32,130 bases of DNA from Candidatus Cloacimonadota bacterium (GTDB taxonomy: Bacteria; Cloacimonadota; Cloacimonadia; Cloacimonadales; TCS61), in the NCBI GenBank assembly GCA_029932755.1, contig JAOZPK010000006.1, forward strand, positions 1 through 32,130. Direction: 5' to 3'. Both the position numbers and the translations under genes were made by a program. Shown piece by piece: positions 22,272-32,130 of the stretch (positions within the stretch are counted from its first letter, which is position 1; the number at the start of each line of letters is the position of its first letter). The notes under the pieces were generated by a model that was not told the DNA's origin, made no database searches, and saw only the letters and a program-made list of their open reading frames with translations.

Positions 22272-22518
22272 TTAAATTCCTTTTTTAGAATTTCTTACAT
22301 TTCAGAATTAATCTCTTCAACTAAAATATGTAAGTTAATATTTCTCCTGTTTTTTTTATGTCAAGATGAAACTAAGATTGAATTTCTTTTATTTCTTAAT
22401 ATCACACACTCGTATGATTTGACTTTGAAAATATTAATCTTATCAAGAAATATTAGCCTTTGCTAAATCTTCACAATAAAAAAACATTTGACAAAAATTT
22501 AACTGACTACTAACTCGG

Positions 22519-22532
22519 TGAGTGTGTACTCA
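22519..22532. promoter_or_regulatory. Candidate TetR-type operator upstream of the TetR gene
   Basis: tgagt-gtgt-actca perfect inverted repeat, overlapping actc-ggt-gagt (22513-22523); TTGACA -35-like at 22488-22493; 15 nt before the tetR-like ATG. Confidence 0.5.
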
Positions 22533-22547
22533 TTAAATGGGGGTTAA

Positions 22548-23138
22548 ATGAATAAACGGCAAATACAGAAGCAATTCACACGAGAAAAAATTATTCGTGC
22601 TGCCAAACAGATATTTATAGAAAAGGGGATCATAAACACTGCTACATCACAGATCGCAGAAGCTGCAGGAATTGCTCACGGTACTCTATTCCTGCATTTT
22701 CCCAATAAAGATTCACTGGTTATTGAACTGCTTGATGTGGAGTTGGCAAAATTCAGCGATAAGATAAAACAGTTGATCATAGAAACCACCGATATTGATA
22801 CAATTTTAAAGCAATATTTAGATCTTATCCAAGCGGAAGAAGGATTTTTTTCATCACTTGCCCGTGAATTGCCCAACTATAAAAATGAGTTGCGCCGGAA
22901 AATATTATTTCGGGAATCTCTGATCAGAGAACATTTTCATCAGGTGATAGAGAATGGTATTGAGCAAAAGATCTATGCTGATATTGACATTGCAAGTACA
23001 CTCAATTTTTTATTCGGCACAATTAATTACTATTTAAGCCTGAAAACAAGTTTTGTGCAGCAGGGAAGCGTAATAGAAAAATTTCGTGATCAGATCATTG
23101 ATATATTTATGAAGATCTTAGAGAAAACTAAAGGATAG
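22548..23138 (+). CDS. TetR/AcrR family transcriptional regulator
   Basis: N-terminal HTH: REKIIRAAKQIFIEKGIINTATSQIAEAAGIAHGTLFLHFPNKDSLVIELL. Confidence 0.93.
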   Translation: MNKRQIQKQFTREKIIRAAKQIFIEKGIINTATSQIAEAAGIAHGTLFLHFPNKDSLVIELLDVELAKFSDKIKQLIIETTDIDTILKQYLDLIQAEEGFFSSLARELPNYKNELRRKILFRESLIREHFHQVIENGIEQKIYADIDIASTLNFLFGTINYYLSLKTSFVQQGSVIEKFRDQIIDIFMKILEKTKG

Positions 23139-23149
23139 GAGGATCTTAA

Positions 23150-26100
23150 ATGAACGAACTATACATTTGCAAAAGTTGCGGAAAAGTATTAAAAGAAGCG
23201 AAAGATTTTGCCGGTGGAAAGATCGGCAGTGCATACTGCAGCCAGTGCACAGATGAATTCGGTTATATGAGAAGATATTCCCAGGTTGTTGAAGAGATCA
23301 AGCATAAACTGATGAAGCAGATGTCTCTCTCCGAGGAAGAAGCAACAAAAATGGCTATGGAGAATGTCTCGGACATCCCGCACTGGGCACAGCGTGAAAA
23401 CCTGATCAGCTCCAAAAAGAACATCATAATTACCGATGTGGGAAGCACCACCACAAAAGCAATTCTGCTGCAAAAAGAAGGTGATGAATTTAAGTTAAGA
23501 TCACTGCATCATGCTGCCACAACTGTGGAAAAACCGGTAGAAGATGTTAATATCGGAGTTTTCAGAGCAATTAAGCATATTGAAAAAGAGACAGGTATTC
23601 CCTTATTAGAATCTGGTTCAACGGAATCTAAGATTATTTTCAATGATGACACTCTATATTTAACCACCAGCAGTGCCGGAGGTGGATTGCAGATACTGGT
23701 GATCGGGTTGACTCTTTTTGATTCTGCCAGCAGTGGTAAAAGAACAGCTTTTGGAGCGGGTGGCGTAATCCTCGATACATTTGCGATAGATGATAAGCGT
23801 AGCAGTCTGGAGCAGATGCAGGCGATGAGCGTTCTGCATCCCGATATCATCCTCATGTGCGGAGGGGTGGATGGCGGAGCGGTTTCACCTATCCTGCGTC
23901 TGGGTGAGATCCTGCAACTGGCGAATCCGAGTCCGAAATTTGGTGATAAAACCAATATCCCGCTGGTCTTTGCCGGTAATACCGGGGCGAGATCGTTCAT
24001 TGCAGGATTGTTCGGTAAAAAATTCGATCTCTTTATCGTTCCCAATCTGCGGCCAAAACTAACTGAAGAGAACCTGCAGCCGGCCAGAGAGAAGATCCAT
24101 CAGCTCTTTATGGATAATGTAATGGAACAAGCTCCCGGCTATTCCAATTTGAAAAAGATAGTTAATGACGACATTATTCCAACCCCGATGAGCGTGATAA
24201 ATTCACTTCAACTTATAAGTGAAAAACTCGATGAAAATGTAATGGCTGTTGATATTGGCGGGGCAACCACCGATATTTTTTCTAATATCTTAGGAGAATA
24301 TTTTAGAACCGTGAGCGCCAATTACGGAATGAGCTACAGTATTTCTAATGTATTTAAAGATGCCGGATATGCCAATGTTAAAAAATGGCTGCCCGATGGA
24401 TTGGATGATAATTACATAACTAATTACATTGCCAATAAAATGCTCTACCCCACCTTCAACCCTTCTACTGTGCCACAGATCGCAATTGAACATGCCATTT
24501 CCAAAGAGGCAATCAGGATGTCAAAAAAGCAACATATGGAGATGAATTTTAATACTAAAGAGATCGGGTTTCTGGATAAGATAAAAATGAAACACAAAGA
24601 TCTGGAAAATATTACAAAAGCTTTTTATATTGAGAAAGCTCAAGAGGCTAAGAAATTTCATATGTACGACATTAATATTCTTATCGGAGCCGGTGGTGTG
24701 CTATCTCACACAGAATCCAATGAACAGGCTCTATCCATAATCTACGATGGATTCCAACCTGAGGGTATTACTGAGATTTGGAAAGATAAGCATTTTATCT
24801 CTCCTCATTTGGGCAAATTGAGTGCCGTTGATGAAAAACTTGCAACAAAATTAATGACAACGGAATGCTTTGAAAAAATAGGAATAGCTATTCGTCCCCT
24901 ATCCCAGGAATGGAAGCAGGATAAAGTGGTTTTGCATATAACGGTAGATAATATGCAACACATTATCAAAGTTGGAGAGCAACTCTACATTCCCAACAAA
25001 GAAGAAGATGTCAGGAGTGTTTCGATCATTCTGGAAAAAGGATTCTATTTGAATGAACAAGGCAAAGGAATGAAATTTGAGTCCGATCTGCCACTCTTCA
25101 TCGATGCTTCATTTGAAGATAACTTTAATTCAGAAAACAAGACAATGCAGCTTTTCTCACAATTTGATGAAGTCCCTTCCATTGAAGAAAGTTTTAACGG
25201 ATTTATAAAACAAAAACCGATAGTTTCAGGAATTCAAGAACATAAAGTTGCACTTCCATATGCAGGGAATATTTTAGTTAAAGTAGGAGATGAAGTAAGC
25301 AGTGACAGCATTATCGGTGAGAACCTGTTCGACCCGCCAAGAGTTTATGTGATCTCACTTTTTGATAAAACATATTTGCATTTAAATAGTGATAATATTG
25401 AAAAATCTCTTCTCATAAAAGAGGGTGATGAAGTTAAATTTGGTCAGCGCATTATAGAGATCGGAGATAGAACTTTTATCCAGGAACTTCAATTCCAGCA
25501 TTTCTATTTTGATGCTCCTGTACGGGGAAGAGTTGAGAAAATCAACTTAGATTCGGGAACAATTATTATGCGTGAGATCCAGGATTATTCCACCAAACCA
25601 AAAAAGATCAATGTAGCTAAGAAACTTAATGTTCTGCCTAAACAGATAAAAGCTTATATGAAAAAAGGGGTAGGAGATTTTGTTTACGCAGGAGACTCCT
25701 TAGCTTCCAGAATCCTTGATAAAAGAACTACACTTCCTGGCATTGTATCATCACCTACCACCGGTAAGATAAAAGAAGTTAATCTTGAAACCGGCATTGT
25801 TACGGTTCAATATGATAAAGACCCTTATCAACTAAGAGCCGGTATCAAGGGTAAAGTTGAAAGAGTAGAAGAAGGAATAGCTGCCATTATCTCATATAAC
25901 GGATTAACTTTGAAAGGAATTATCGGTTTTGGAACTGAAGCAAGCGGAAAATTGAAGCTAATTGAGAAGCCATCGGAATTAGATAATTGCCACGAAGATG
26001 AAATCCTGGTCTTCACACAGAAGATTGATATTGAAATTCTTACCAAAGCTACAAAGAAAAAAATAAAAGGTATTATCACACCCTCGATAAACAGTGTTGA

Positions 26101-26314
26101 TTTGGTTCAATTTATCGGTAAGGAGATCGGAGTTGCGCTAACCGGAAACGAAGATATTCCATTCCCGCTTATACTTACAGAAGGATTTGGAAATTTCAAA
26201 ATGAACAGTGATTACTTTAAAACTTTATCGGAAAATAATGGTAAACATATCTATATCAATGGTCATACTCAAATCAGGGCAGGAGTTACAAGACCTAAGA
26301 TGATAATCTATTAA
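23150..26314 (+). CDS. Zinc-ribbon (PF12674-like) + glutamate-mutase-L/GlmL-like ASKHA domain + C-terminal barrel-like domains
   Basis: CKSCGKVL...YCSQCTDEFGY ribbon; IIITDVGSTTTKAILLQ and VMAVDIGGATTDIFS phosphate motifs; MCGGVDGGAVSPIL; C-terminal VKVGDEVSSDSIIGENL / IKEGDEVKFGQRIIEIGD / KGVGDFVYAGDSLASRIL barrel-sandwich-like repeats. Confidence 0.8.
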   Translation: MNELYICKSCGKVLKEAKDFAGGKIGSAYCSQCTDEFGYMRRYSQVVEEIKHKLMKQMSLSEEEATKMAMENVSDIPHWAQRENLISSKKNIIITDVGSTTTKAILLQKEGDEFKLRSLHHAATTVEKPVEDVNIGVFRAIKHIEKETGIPLLESGSTESKIIFNDDTLYLTTSSAGGGLQILVIGLTLFDSASSGKRTAFGAGGVILDTFAIDDKRSSLEQMQAMSVLHPDIILMCGGVDGGAVSPILRLGEILQLANPSPKFGDKTNIPLVFAGNTGARSFIAGLFGKKFDLFIVPNLRPKLTEENLQPAREKIHQLFMDNVMEQAPGYSNLKKIVNDDIIPTPMSVINSLQLISEKLDENVMAVDIGGATTDIFSNILGEYFRTVSANYGMSYSISNVFKDAGYANVKKWLPDGLDDNYITNYIANKMLYPTFNPSTVPQIAIEHAISKEAIRMSKKQHMEMNFNTKEIGFLDKIKMKHKDLENITKAFYIEKAQEAKKFHMYDINILIGAGGVLSHTESNEQALSIIYDGFQPEGITEIWKDKHFISPHLGKLSAVDEKLATKLMTTECFEKIGIAIRPLSQEWKQDKVVLHITVDNMQHIIKVGEQLYIPNKEEDVRSVSIILEKGFYLNEQGKGMKFESDLPLFIDASFEDNFNSENKTMQLFSQFDEVPSIEESFNGFIKQKPIVSGIQEHKVALPYAGNILVKVGDEVSSDSIIGENLFDPPRVYVISLFDKTYLHLNSDNIEKSLLIKEGDEVKFGQRIIEIGDRTFIQELQFQHFYFDAPVRGRVEKINLDSGTIIMREIQDYSTKPKKINVAKKLNVLPKQIKAYMKKGVGDFVYAGDSLASRILDKRTTLPGIVSSPTTGKIKEVNLETGIVTVQYDKDPYQLRAGIKGKVERVEEGIAAIISYNGLTLKGIIGFGTEASGKLKLIEKPSELDNCHEDEILVFTQKIDIEILTKATKKKIKGIITPSINSVDLVQFIGKEIGVALTGNEDIPFPLILTEGFGNFKMNSDYFKTLSENNGKHIYINGHTQIRAGVTRPKMIIY

Positions 26315-26381: not shown

Positions 26382-26777
26382 ATGTATGATAATATGTACG
26401 CTTCGGAAGTGAGCTCAGGTCCAGGGATAGTTTTCTGGATTTTTTATTTTGCCTTTATTGTTTTTTTCATCATTGTTATGTGGAAGATCTTTGTGAAAGC
26501 AGGGAAACCGGGCTGGGGATGTATTGTCCCGATCTATAACAATATCCTACAGTTGGAAATTGCCGGCAGACCGATCTGGTGGATCTTCTTAATGTTCATC
26601 CCATTTGTGAATATTGTTATTTCGATCATCGTGATAATTGATTTTGCCAAAGCATTCGGCAAAGGAACCGGTTTTGGAATTGGAATGTTATTTCTGCCCT
26701 TTATCTTCTTCCCGATCCTTGCCTTTGACAGCTCTGAATACCAGGAGACAATTCATATTGTAAGTCAGCCGTATTAG
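26382..26777 (+). CDS. Small multi-pass membrane protein, DUF5684-like
   Basis: VKAGKPGWGCIVPIYNNILQLEIAGRPIWWIFLMFIPFVNIVISIIVIIDFAKAFGKGTGFGIGMLFLPFIFFPILAFDSSEY is typical of this family. Confidence 0.8.
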   Translation: MYDNMYASEVSSGPGIVFWIFYFAFIVFFIIVMWKIFVKAGKPGWGCIVPIYNNILQLEIAGRPIWWIFLMFIPFVNIVISIIVIIDFAKAFGKGTGFGIGMLFLPFIFFPILAFDSSEYQETIHIVSQPY

Positions 26778-26912: not shown

Positions 26913-28124
26913 TTACTTTAGGAGAATCATCTTTCTCGTCTTTTCGAAATTTTCAGTTTTCAGTTTATAGAAATATATTCCAGTAGAAACGAATTTACCA
27001 TTATCATCTTTTCCATTCCAAATTACTGAATGCTGACCTGCTGGTAGCTGTTCGCTGATAAGCTGCTTCACTTGTTGTCCTTTAATGTTGTAGATATTGA
27101 GTGTCACAAACGAGGATGTTTGTGTTACAGAAAAACTGATAGTTGTTTCAGGATTGAAAGGATTAGGATAATTTTGAGATAATTCAAATTTAACACTGGT
27201 GATTTCATTTGAAACTTCAATTCCAACCGGATTGATTAATCCATTTATGTCATATCTGGAAAAGAAATTCCAGATTTCTTCAGATGCATTAATATCATAA
27301 TTTGTATATGGAAGTCCATATTCATATGTAGTTCCAGGCCATGAATGTCCACCATCAATTACTTTATAATGTTCAACTGAAACACCATTATCACCTTCAT
27401 CATAAGCAATAAGCTCAATAGTACTTCCGTCATTTGGGTCAATATCAGGTAATTCTGTTATTGTAGGTGTTGCATTGCAATTATTATATCCAACCCAATA
27501 TTGGATCACATCTTCTATAGGTTCTGACCACCATGTCCCATTATAAGGAACAACAGTATCTGAATCTCCATGCATTTGTATAATCGGAGTTGGGTGTTGA
27601 GGATTACTATTGCTTAATGTTTCCGGAGTCATTGATCCTGCAACAGAGGCAATAGCAGCAATCCTATCACTCAATTGACAAACTAAGAGAAAACTCATGT
27701 ACCCTCCGTTGGAAAACCCAGTGCTGTAAATCCTTGTTGAATCAATACTGAAATCTGAAGAAAGTGAATCGAGCAATGCCTCTGTAAAACCTACATCATC
27801 TATTGGACTCCCTATAATCCAACCCCCAACATTCCAATGAGTTATACCTTGAAATAACGTTCCCTGAGGATGGACAATCAAAAACCCTGAACTATCAGCA
27901 ATAGATCTAAAATCACCATACTCCATTTGATAATCTGCAGTCTGATTATATCCATGAAAATTAAGAATCAATGGAACTGGTGAATTCCCAGTGTAGTTTG
28001 CTGGTATATAGAGAATATATTCTCTTAGCATTTCGTCATGTGTTATTGATCCATAGATGGTTTGTTGTGCAAAACACAAAGTTGATAATCCAATTAGGAA
28101 AAGAATAATTACTAATTGTTTCAT
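26913..28124 (-). CDS. Secreted PHB-depolymerase/feruloyl-esterase-like hydrolase with C-terminal sorting domain
   Basis: VPLILNFHGYNQTADYQ, TGFSNGGYMSFLL (GxSxGG), HGDSDTVVPYNG, DGGHSWPG; C-terminal NYPNPFNPETTISFSV...GIYFYKLKTENFEKTRKMILLK. Start at 28124 (MKQLVI...) chosen over 28136 because of the GGAGG upstream. Confidence 0.88.
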   Translation of the reverse strand: MKQLVIILFLIGLSTLCFAQQTIYGSITHDEMLREYILYIPANYTGNSPVPLILNFHGYNQTADYQMEYGDFRSIADSSGFLIVHPQGTLFQGITHWNVGGWIIGSPIDDVGFTEALLDSLSSDFSIDSTRIYSTGFSNGGYMSFLLVCQLSDRIAAIASVAGSMTPETLSNSNPQHPTPIIQMHGDSDTVVPYNGTWWSEPIEDVIQYWVGYNNCNATPTITELPDIDPNDGSTIELIAYDEGDNGVSVEHYKVIDGGHSWPGTTYEYGLPYTNYDINASEEIWNFFSRYDINGLINPVGIEVSNEITSVKFELSQNYPNPFNPETTISFSVTQTSSFVTLNIYNIKGQQVKQLISEQLPAGQHSVIWNGKDDNGKFVSTGIYFYKLKTENFEKTRKMILLK

Positions 28125-28206
28125 AAAAACCTCCAATAATTTAATCTTATTGTAAAATTCTAGTATAGCAATGCTGCTCTAATCTAAAATACTAATTCCT
28201 TTATCT

Positions 28207-30651
28207 TTATTTGAGTAATATCATCTTTTTCGTCTTTTCGAAATTAGCGGTTTTAAGTTTATAGAAATATATTCCGCTTGAAACGGATTTACCATTGTCA
28301 TCAGTCCCATTCCAAATAACTGTACGCTGACCGGCTGACAGTTGATCGCTTATAAGCTGTTTTACTTTTTGTCCTTTGATGTTGTAGATGTCTAGATTCA
28401 CAAACGAGGACGTTTGTGTTACAGAAAAACTGATCGTTGTTTCTGGATTGAATGGATTGGGGTAATTCTGATGTAGCTTAGTTATGGCAGGAATTACATT
28501 TTCATTGCTGCTTAAATTTTGAGAAACAGCCACGGTCTTGATACAAAAATTATAGTTATAAGTTGCAGGAAGTGGCATCCAGGAAGATGTATAGATGTAG
28601 GCTCCGTTTCCTTCTACTACTGGACCTGCATCGTGATAAACTGCTGCAATGTTACCGGAGAGAGAATAAATTCTGTAACCGATATAATATTCTGCCGTTA
28701 CATCTATCTCAAAAAGATCTTCATAAACAACATTAAGCCACTCACCTTCTGTAAAATTATTTACCTGTTGTTCACAGAGTAAAAAATCGTTTTTCCAAAT
28801 TTGAGCATATAATTCACCTTCATCAGGATCGAAAGGAGCGATAAATTCTACTTGTGAAAAAATATTATCTTCATAACCTATTAGGTCTTCTCCAGCCAGC
28901 CGGATCGCACAACTCATATATTGGAAAAGCTGTAATTGTCCCACCGGATCTCCAGCAAAATTGAATGTAAATTCATAGGGATATTCTTCCAGTTGGAAAT
29001 CAATAATTTGGTTATCTACTGAGATTGTTACATCCTGGGTATCGAAGTAATTTCCAGCTAAACTGGCAGTTGCTACATAATCTCCAGGAATTACTCCTGG
29101 AATAACGTAATCACCATTTATATCTGCAACTCCGGAACTGATTAATATATCATCCTGGTAAATATTTATGTGCGTATTTTCCGGATTTATAGCAACACTT
29201 ACATTTCCGGAAATTGTCTCATAATTATCCAAATAGATAATAAGAGTATTATTATTTTCATCCAAAGTAACGATCTCATTCTTATAAAAATATCCACCAT
29301 TTTCTAATTCGATGATTGCTGTCATTTCGTATTCACCAGGGAAAAGAATGGGAATATCAAAGTAACCGTCCGGATCATCAACAAATATCTCATGATATCT
29401 GGGTCCATCCAGAATAATGTGAGTTTCATCCAAAGGGACTCCTTCTGCAACGACCACACCAGACACATCGAAAGGTATAGTTCCACCTTCGATATTAATA
29501 ACAGCACATTCAATGATGCTGAAGCCGCCTGGCATTCCGGTGGGAAGAGAGAACCAACCACTGGAGGCTCCTCCCCAGCCAAAATTTAAATGATAGGTGT
29601 CTTCATTACCATTATAACCATCACAAATTATTATATGACCACTTCCACCTGATATATAAACGGCAAACTCTGCCGGACGAGCTTCTATTATATCTGCCTG
29701 GAGATCACTATAAAACAGTTCATTAATAACTGTAGCATAAATCGCTGTATCGTAATCGTATTTGTCAAGAAGAGCATAATAAGCATCAACTAACCATGTC
29801 CCAGACCAAGAGGAAGAGTACCATGTATCTATGGATACTCCTGAGGCAAAATTCAAAGCTGCGATCAAATCTTCTGAGGGATCATCATAATTCTCATAAG
29901 CAATTTTCAATTCATCAAGATATAGATTTAACTGTGGAAAGGAAGGAAAATCAAGCGTTAAATAATCATCATCAATATGAATAGATGGTGATGTCCCGTA
30001 TGAATAATAGTCGTCTGTATCATCAAAAGTGGCTTCACCGATATACTTATGATAATGTAAGATTTGTGCGAAAGCTGTACCTCCGCAACCCACCGCGCTT
30101 CTTTGCATATTTTCCGGATCGAGTGGACAAAAATTATTGTATGGTTCACTTTGGTGCCATTGTGTATCTACCCATCCTCCTGTGGAACTGTAACCTTCCG
30201 GCGGATAGATATTATTCCTGTTCCGGGGTTGTTCATAAGTTCCATTTAGATAACTGCTCCACAAGATTCGGTTTGATTGTTTTACCTCTTCTGATGTGTA
30301 TGGAATTGCTTCCAATCTTAATCTCATATCATTTTTCAGATATTGATATCCAATATTTTGAGGGGTGTCCAAATTAATGAAATTGTTGAGAAAAGAATAA
30401 CCGATAACCGGGTAAATATCTGTATCAGTTGAGGTCGCAACAAAGCCTTTTGGCTGCAGATTGAAAACATAAGCTAAAGTAATTTCATTTGAATCTTTTA
30501 TTTCAAAATATTCGGAGATCGTATATCCTGTTTTTTCGTGAATAGTGAGTTGATGTTCTGCTATTTTCAGAGCTTGTTCGTAGCTTACGGATGATGCTGT
30601 GAGAACATTAACAAGAAAAAGTAAAATCACTAAAATAAGTAATTGTTTCAT
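28207..30651 (-). CDS. C10 family (streptopain-like) cysteine peptidase with C-terminal sorting domain
   Basis: RSAVGCGGTAFAQILHYHKY (catalytic Cys), SGGSGHIIICDGYNGNEDTYHLNFGWGG (catalytic His), Spi-like prodomain; C-terminal NYPNPFNPETTISFSV...KTKKMILLK. Confidence 0.9.
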   Translation of the reverse strand: MKQLLILVILLFLVNVLTASSVSYEQALKIAEHQLTIHEKTGYTISEYFEIKDSNEITLAYVFNLQPKGFVATSTDTDIYPVIGYSFLNNFINLDTPQNIGYQYLKNDMRLRLEAIPYTSEEVKQSNRILWSSYLNGTYEQPRNRNNIYPPEGYSSTGGWVDTQWHQSEPYNNFCPLDPENMQRSAVGCGGTAFAQILHYHKYIGEATFDDTDDYYSYGTSPSIHIDDDYLTLDFPSFPQLNLYLDELKIAYENYDDPSEDLIAALNFASGVSIDTWYSSSWSGTWLVDAYYALLDKYDYDTAIYATVINELFYSDLQADIIEARPAEFAVYISGGSGHIIICDGYNGNEDTYHLNFGWGGASSGWFSLPTGMPGGFSIIECAVINIEGGTIPFDVSGVVVAEGVPLDETHIILDGPRYHEIFVDDPDGYFDIPILFPGEYEMTAIIELENGGYFYKNEIVTLDENNNTLIIYLDNYETISGNVSVAINPENTHINIYQDDILISSGVADINGDYVIPGVIPGDYVATASLAGNYFDTQDVTISVDNQIIDFQLEEYPYEFTFNFAGDPVGQLQLFQYMSCAIRLAGEDLIGYEDNIFSQVEFIAPFDPDEGELYAQIWKNDFLLCEQQVNNFTEGEWLNVVYEDLFEIDVTAEYYIGYRIYSLSGNIAAVYHDAGPVVEGNGAYIYTSSWMPLPATYNYNFCIKTVAVSQNLSSNENVIPAITKLHQNYPNPFNPETTISFSVTQTSSFVNLDIYNIKGQKVKQLISDQLSAGQRTVIWNGTDDNGKSVSSGIYFYKLKTANFEKTKKMILLK

Positions 30652-30757: not shown

Positions 30758-32130
30758 TTATTTCATTAATATCATTTTCTTCGTCTGTTCATGTTTTCCA
30801 GCTTTCAGTTTATAGAAATAAATCCCTGAAGAAACTGATTTATTATTATCATCTCTTCCATTCCAAACTACGCTGTAATGTTTTCCCTCTCGTCCTTCGA
30901 TGAACTCAGGATGACACAAGCTCGGGGAAAGGTCTTTCACTTTTTGACCTTTAAGGTTATAAATACCCAATTCGATTTGTTTGTTTTGTTCGCTGCTAAC
31001 GCTAAAAGAAATCGTGGTGGACGGGTTAAAAGGATTGGGATAATTTTGATGCAGAAAGTCTTTTGTTTGTACAATTGTGTTTTCGTTGCTGCTAACCGGT
31101 TCGGGATGCTCATAAGCTCCCATATCAATGTAAGCAAATCCATCTCCTCTGCCATCCACGATTCGCTCATTACCGATAATATCAAAAAGTGGTAGATTCA
31201 ATCCGGTTGTATCTTGAATACCGGCATCTATACAGGGAGAATCTTCCAACAATGAGAAGGAATGTTCTCCGGTTCCTGCAAATAAAGGATCTTCAAAAAT
31301 ATTGAAAAAATCATCACAGGATGTTCCATAAATGTTAAATCCTGTAATATCACCCAGTCCGGTAGGAACACCTCCACTAAATTCATTCCCATCGTTAAAA
31401 AAATCACAGAAACTGATATCTACATTTCCGGGTAGATTAAAATATATTCCTGCACCACTAACTGCCTCATTTCCTTCGGCTATCGTATTGATCATGGTAA
31501 TGTCCGAACTATTAACAGCAATTCCCCCACCATTTCCGGTTGTATTTCCGCTGATTGTGCAGTTGATAAATTTAGCATAAGCATTAATTAGGACATAAGC
31601 ACCACCGCCATTTCCACCTGAATGATTATCACTTATCATGCAATTGATAATATCTACTTCAGAATCATATATCCCAAAACCACCGCAATTTCCATTAGCA
31701 GTATTTCCAAAAATTTGACAATTTTCAACAATACCGTGATTTGTTGTTGAACATGAAGTATAAGTTATACCTCCAGAATGTGTTCCTGCTGTATTGTTAC
31801 ATATGATATTATTGAAGAATACGGGGCTGGAATCGCCAATAATAAAAACTCCACCACCCCTTAAATCAGTAGAATTTCCTGTTATAACATTGCCTACTAA
31901 GGTTGGAGAACTGTTGTTAATGAATATCCCACCACCATCAGCAGAACTATTGCCGTTTGTGATCGAGAATCCGGTTAAAACGGCATCCATAGTTTCACCA
32001 TTTACAAATCCTACAACATAACCATTTTGATTTCCATCAATAATTGTCAGGGAAATATAGGTTGTATCTTGTGTTGTTAAGAATAATGAAGCAATAGTAA
32101 TGTTCTTACCATAGTAGTTAATGTTTTCTA
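30758..32130 (-). CDS. Right-handed parallel beta-helix repeat protein with C-terminal sorting domain; 5' end lies beyond the window
   Basis: Repeated GNSTDLRGGGVFI/GNTTGNGGGIAV-type coils; DIGAYEHP-like end; NYPNPFNPSTTISFSV...TKKMILMK. Manual translation stays open from 31990 to the window end (...NINYYGKNITIASLFLTTQDTTYISLTIIDGNQNGYVVGFVNGETMDAVLTGFSITNGN), so Met at 31990 is internal. Confidence 0.9.
   Translation of the reverse strand, partial: ENINYYGKNITIASLFLTTQDTTYISLTIIDGNQNGYVVGFVNGETMDAVLTGFSITNGNSSADGGGIFINNSSPTLVGNVITGNSTDLRGGGVFIIGDSSPVFFNNIICNNTAGTHSGGITYTSCSTTNHGIVENCQIFGNTANGNCGGFGIYDSEVDIINCMISDNHSGGNGGGAYVLINAYAKFINCTISGNTTGNGGGIAVNSSDITMINTIAEGNEAVSGAGIYFNLPGNVDISFCDFFNDGNEFSGGVPTGLGDITGFNIYGTSCDDFFNIFEDPLFAGTGEHSFSLLEDSPCIDAGIQDTTGLNLPLFDIIGNERIVDGRGDGFAYIDMGAYEHPEPVSSNENTIVQTKDFLHQNYPNPFNPSTTISFSVSSEQNKQIELGIYNLKGQKVKDLSPSLCHPEFIEGREGKHYSVVWNGRDDNNKSVSSGIYFYKLKAGKHEQTKKMILMK
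30891..30915 (-). repeat. Interspersed repeat fragment inserted in-frame in a CDS (encodes CHPEFIEGR)
   Basis: cgtccttcgatgaactcaggatgac; translates to CHPEFIEGR in the gene frame and SSFDELRMT on the opposite strand. Absent from the two paralogous C-terminal domains in this window. Confidence 0.8.

Follow-up and report, generated by a model that had tools for sequence, protein, structure and literature searches.

The window analysed here, a stretch of 32,130 nucleotides from a Candidatus Cloacimonadota bacterium, carries a TetR-type gene followed by the gene of a large protein, here called A, whose ATPase domain is of the GlmL type. No glutamate mutase subunit (GlmS or GlmE) is recognised in the window. 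The reading tentatively preferred is that A may be a TetR-autorepressed, Hsp70-like ATPase or chaperone for an envelope function, and not for a B12 mutase.

The tetR-A locus

The tetR gene (22548-23138, + strand) encodes a TetR-family repressor of 196 aa and is separated by 11 bp from the gene of A (23150-26314, + strand; 1054 aa), with a GGAGG preceding the start codon of the latter. These open reading frames agree with those given by an earlier sequence-only reading, which had placed the start of the feature at 22488, the first base of a TTGACA (22488-22493, + strand) that can be read directly and, as a consensus match, is a predicted promoter element, presumed to be the -35 box of a tetR-A operon. 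The TetR protein has the DNA-binding domain of its family (TetR_N, PF00440, 54 bits vs a cut-off of 24), its C-terminal part is weakly TetR_C_24-like, and the NCBIfam FadR model scores 57.7 bits, under its cut-off of 200.

A DUF5684 membrane protein is encoded 67 bp downstream of A (26382-26777, + strand; PF18936, 97.6 bits). The DUF5684 cluster is present in 14 loci and lies 3' of A in several, and it is a recurrent neighbour, possibly within the same operon. Further along the window, on the minus strand, three successive genes (26913-28136, 28207-30651 and 30758-31990) have products that end in a T9SS-type C-terminal sorting tail, and that of 26913-28136 resembles an extracellular PHB depolymerase (150.7 vs a cut-off of 150). 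In one other genome a ClpB-like AAA+ protein is found 3' of A (L039:6820-9318).

Domain architecture and predicted structure of A

The three-part architecture that the sequence-only reading had given A is confirmed by profile matches. The N-terminal zinc ribbon (Zn_ribbon_2, PF12674; residues 6-79, 23165-23386, + strand) scores 29.3 bits vs a cut-off of 22.5, and its cysteines (7, 10, 30 and 33) are kept in the alignment of TetR-linked homologues. It is followed by a full-length MutL domain (PF13941; residues 92-572, 23423-24865, + strand) at 322.5 bits vs a cut-off of 27, a genome search giving the same coordinates. Both phosphate motifs, which had been noticed before, lie in this domain (DVGSTTTK at 96-103 and DIGGATTD at 368-375) and line up with those of true GlmL and Or-4. 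The C-terminal region (residues 686-1054, 25205-26311, + strand) consists of barrel-sandwich segments and then an alpha/beta end at about 935-1054 with swivelling-type matches; a Biotin_lipoyl match at residues 837-884 reaches 23.6 bits vs a cut-off of 22.1, and an NQRA_N barrel-sandwich match at 750-799 is under its cut-off. Repeated barrel-sandwich segments had been read over some 450 residues, and whilst the segments stand, the region is now refined to about 370 residues that include the alpha/beta end.

Structure prediction of the C-terminal part, which had been proposed as a check, was done with AlphaFold2 and reaches a pLDDT of 87.7, against 74.7 for the protein as a whole. Compared with the PDB by Foldseek, the whole model is closest to an N-methylhydantoinase (9h03), and near the top there are also an acetone carboxylase (5svc) and the Apc core complex (5l9w); Hsp70s, FtsA, PilM, glycerol kinase and DdrA are also matched, as is the diol-dehydratase reactivase 2d0o (E 4e-5), and these matches place A in the ASKHA (actin/Hsp70) fold at the level of the domain. 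The C-terminal model matches insertion domains of RNA-polymerase beta' (E about 1e-4) and also Rv3853. Its weaker matches include PA-domain and RraA-like folds, both of the swivelling class in SCOP. TM-scores normalised by query length reach only 0.07-0.21, so that the fold matches are valid for domains and not for the whole architecture, and a sequence search of the PDB gave nothing convincing.

It is apparent that A is related to, but distinct from, the known systems of this type. With GlmL/MutL (NF040745; PF13941) it has in common the full-length PF13941 domain, both phosphate motifs, and the SSAxGG, GGxDGG-type and PTP motifs, yet it is twice as long, adds the zinc ribbon and the C-terminal domains, lacks neighbouring GlmS/GlmE, has VSAN in place of VEGD, and scores 195.9 bits against the GlmL cut-off of 475. 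Or-4, the GlmL-related ornithine degradation protein (NF040744), also has a GlmL-type ATPase domain, but A belongs to another clade and scores 172.9 bits vs a cut-off of 600, and no OraSE was seen beside A. Neither curated NCBIfam family therefore takes in A. In diol/glycerol dehydratase reactivase the large subunit is an ASKHA ATPase to which further domains, one of them swivelling, are joined (PMC7674605). The structure 2d0o_A thus resembles A in carrying extra domains on an ASKHA ATPase, although the domain order differs, the overall TM-score is low and a partner small subunit of A is not recognised.

Relatives of A and a split paralogue

Other Cloacimonadota MAGs contain 38 A-type loci with 50-89% identity, and relatives were matched in 59 of 60 genomes, nearly all of which have a distinct copy, B; the finding is thus not due to chance. 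The whole-genome searches were centred on Cloacimonadota, and the single scan of a genome collection detects close relatives only. Two of the 38 loci (L035, L038), in records titled Armatimonadota, have an A of Cloacimonadota type and are likely mislabelled.

On sequence comparison A is a fused paralogue of B, a split three-gene set that is near-universal in Cloacimonadota. In the ten B loci read, one of them in the window's own genome, the core is a GlmL-like ATPase of about 620 aa, preceded in most by a protein of about 125 aa and followed, except at contig ends, by one of about 375 aa (B2). The ATPase domains of A and B are about 40% identical and the C-terminal domain is common to both, the C-terminus of A being homologous to B2 (hhalign probability 100, E 9e-41), although B2 extends further at its C-terminal end, by a stretch with no counterpart in A. 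Set B differs from A in being three genes, in having no zinc ribbon and in its housekeeping-type neighbourhood, and no TetR gene was recognised near B at the loci read. The ATPase-domain tree has A, joined by some divergent copies, as one supported clade and B as another, both separate from GlmL/Or-4 with support of 100/100. Where five GlmL/Or-4 comparators have RTVEGD, both A and B have RTVSAN. Relatives were absent from viral contigs, and in a plasmid collection the ATPase matches were of GlmL/Or-4 type only and a B2 homologue was absent. Additional divergent GlmL-like copies occur in G042 and G050 (L077:9617-12016, 799 aa, and L078:9208-12411, 1067 aa).

A predicted TetR operator and its second target

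The coupling of A to a TetR gene is conserved among its zinc-ribbon-bearing homologues. A TetR gene lies upstream on the same strand in all 18 zinc-ribbon-bearing A genes with enough upstream sequence and in none of 11 homologues without the ribbon. Ribbon-less homologues have other neighbours (ABC permeases, an S9 peptidase, a histidine kinase). The count covers named records and the window, with at least 2.5 kb of upstream sequence demanded of the ribbon-less rows; L055, whose cysteine spacing escaped the pattern, was entered among the 18 by eye, and as many ribbon-less rows are one clade the counts are not independent events. Judged from these gene neighbourhoods, the TetR linkage and the zinc ribbon go together.

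Comparison of upstream regions gave a putative operator of 29 bp, TGACTACTAACTCGGTGAGTGTGTACTCA (22504-22532, + strand), a phylogenetic footprint with 0 mismatches to the consensus TGAS-N5-ACTCRGTGAS-N5-RCTCA, which begins about 10 bp after TTGACA. It is made up of two 14-bp palindrome-like units, TGA(N8)TC(G/A), 15 bp apart; 0 matches are expected in shuffled window sequence, and the genome of the window has no other such site. Searched for at up to 1 mismatch in two overlapping sets of 40 genomes, the pattern gave 26 distinct sites, whilst the reversed control pattern gave 0. All 26 have TTGACA about 10 bp ahead; 21 lie before tetR, and 5 before a gene for a DUF6754 protein of about 994 aa (in G010, G012, G014, G015 and G019), and in a few further orthologues (L061, L064, G038) the motif departs from the consensus at more positions. 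The predicted operator is highly specific, and sequence gives good support to the parts of the locus and to the regulon. A conserved palindromic site thus lies at tetR's own promoter, as would be expected of an autorepressor, and we infer that this TetR binds the site at 22504-22532.

In G038 tetR, A and the four genes of the DUF6754 operon are consecutive. The genus of the window has the DUF6754 operon as well, but the stretches read there contain no operator at up to 4 mismatches, hence co-regulation of tetR and this operon is seen in some genera only.

B12-dependent enzymes and other alternatives

A search for B12-dependent mutases or aminomutases had been proposed as a check, and such an enzyme as the partner of A is not borne out. 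That A would reactivate such an AdoCbl-dependent enzyme, like true GlmL, is quite improbable, even though its closest named homologues adjoin GlmS/GlmE or OraSE and candidate enzymes are common: the mutase searches, which covered GlmE, methylmalonyl-CoA mutase (MCM) and KamD, found MCM in 41 and the lysine 5,6-aminomutase KamD (PF09043) in 23 of 60 genomes. However, GlmE (PF06368) is over its cut-off in 0 of the 60, the window's own genome (an assembly 82% complete) included, MCM is not found in G000, and KamD is absent from G000 and from nearly all genomes of the window's family. Seven genomes that are 93-98% complete (G001, G006, G007, G012, G020, G021 and G022) have A or an A-like copy without MCM or KamD, genomes such as G043, G044, G051, G053 and G054 have KamD without a match to A, and A has RTVSAN for RTVEGD and misses the curated GlmL and Or-4 cut-offs. 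Lysine 5,6-aminomutase, MCM and glutamate mutase were rejected as partners since their distribution does not fit; the retention of A where none is found leaves the B12 link unsupported, and the distribution of A already disfavours reactivation of a mutase. At the loci read no AdoCbl mutase lies beside A except in G058, where mutAB/meaB are near A; these are divergent and lie beyond pgk, and were judged incidental. Two further candidates were set aside, a B12-binding protein 3' of A in G020, judged to be of a sensor type only from its sequence start and signalling-gene neighbours, and the sole PF02310 match of G007, a protein of about 560 aa read as radical-SAM-type from its length and sequence start. 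Among the neighbours read of the Cloacimonadota kamDE genes in L101, L103 and L107 a GlmL-like gene was not recognised. Use of AdoCbl does persist, as the class II ribonucleotide reductase NrdJ is present in 9/9 and a CobA-type adenosyltransferase in 8/9 tested genomes, and A and B might maintain this AdoCbl-dependent enzyme. This is very improbable, as among 14 control genomes 7 pass the cut-off of the NrdJ model and 0 that of PF13941, and linkage of NrdJ to A or B was not seen; of the two, B would be the better candidate, A being missing from some genomes.

An ATP-dependent metabolic enzyme like HyuA or acetone carboxylase, rather than a chaperone, is an unlikely reading of A. The leading Foldseek matches (9h03, 5svc and 5l9w) and a weak PF01968 match (24.1 vs a cut-off of 22.9 bits) are in its favour, but PF13941 fits far better at 322.5 bits, a HyuB-like partner gene is not recognised near A, and inspection of the alignment by eye shows no conserved lysine at the biotinyl/lipoyl position. 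Equally unlikely is a nucleotide-dependent sensor or regulator acting with TetR, for example by binding TetR or RNA polymerase through the ribbon and the barrel-sandwich region. Ribbon and TetR linkage do co-occur and the C-terminal model resembles the beta' insertion domains; however, barrel-sandwich folds are promiscuous, and set B has the same C-terminus with no TetR recognised at the loci read.

Possible function of A and the DUF6754 operon

Beyond the architecture, nucleotide motifs, paralogy, operator and regulon, which are supported by computation, we infer for the envelope-chaperone reading an ATPase activity, a chaperone action, a client and a ligand. Within the GlmL/MutL superfamily of actin-fold (ASKHA) ATPases, A would be a member diverted from the reactivation of B12 mutases. 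A nucleotide-dependent chaperone is plausible, and A probably acts on a client as a chaperone or remodelling factor driven by ATP. Its GlmL-type domain would hydrolyse ATP, whilst the barrel-sandwich/swivelling region and the zinc ribbon may contact the client. TetR would repress tetR-A through the two tandem palindromes just past the TTGACA box, with a ligand lifting the repression. An envelope function is the most likely client or process, as in several genera the operator stands before the DUF6754 operon, the genes of which lie directly behind A in G038. Against this stand the lack of the operator before that operon in the stretches read from the window's genus, and the different neighbours of ribbon-less A homologues. 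The earlier suggestion that A serves something besides glutamate mutase is in keeping with the lack of GlmE in all 60 genomes and with a regulon that points to this operon. The more specific proposal, that A belongs to a class of GlmL-derived ATPases serving an envelope complex (the DUF6754 set) under a dedicated TetR, with B as the split housekeeping counterpart, is rather doubtful.

A branch of this family kept where such mutases were not found, together with a TetR operator and a membrane operon, suggests that a reactivase fold may have been recruited for another process. An uncultured phylum thereby gains testable parts: the 29-bp operator and the repressor, the ATPase, and a membrane operon as its candidate client. 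New here are the TetR operator and its second target in relatives, the DUF6754 operon. This operon has four genes, for the DUF6754 protein and for membrane proteins of about 207, 200 and 330 aa. Family annotation yielded no function for its proteins and a literature search found no paper naming DUF6754. In all or most of five promoters upstream of the DUF6754 gene (L131-L135), a TTGACAATAA-like stretch occurs a second time, closer to the gene, and is possibly a second promoter or site.
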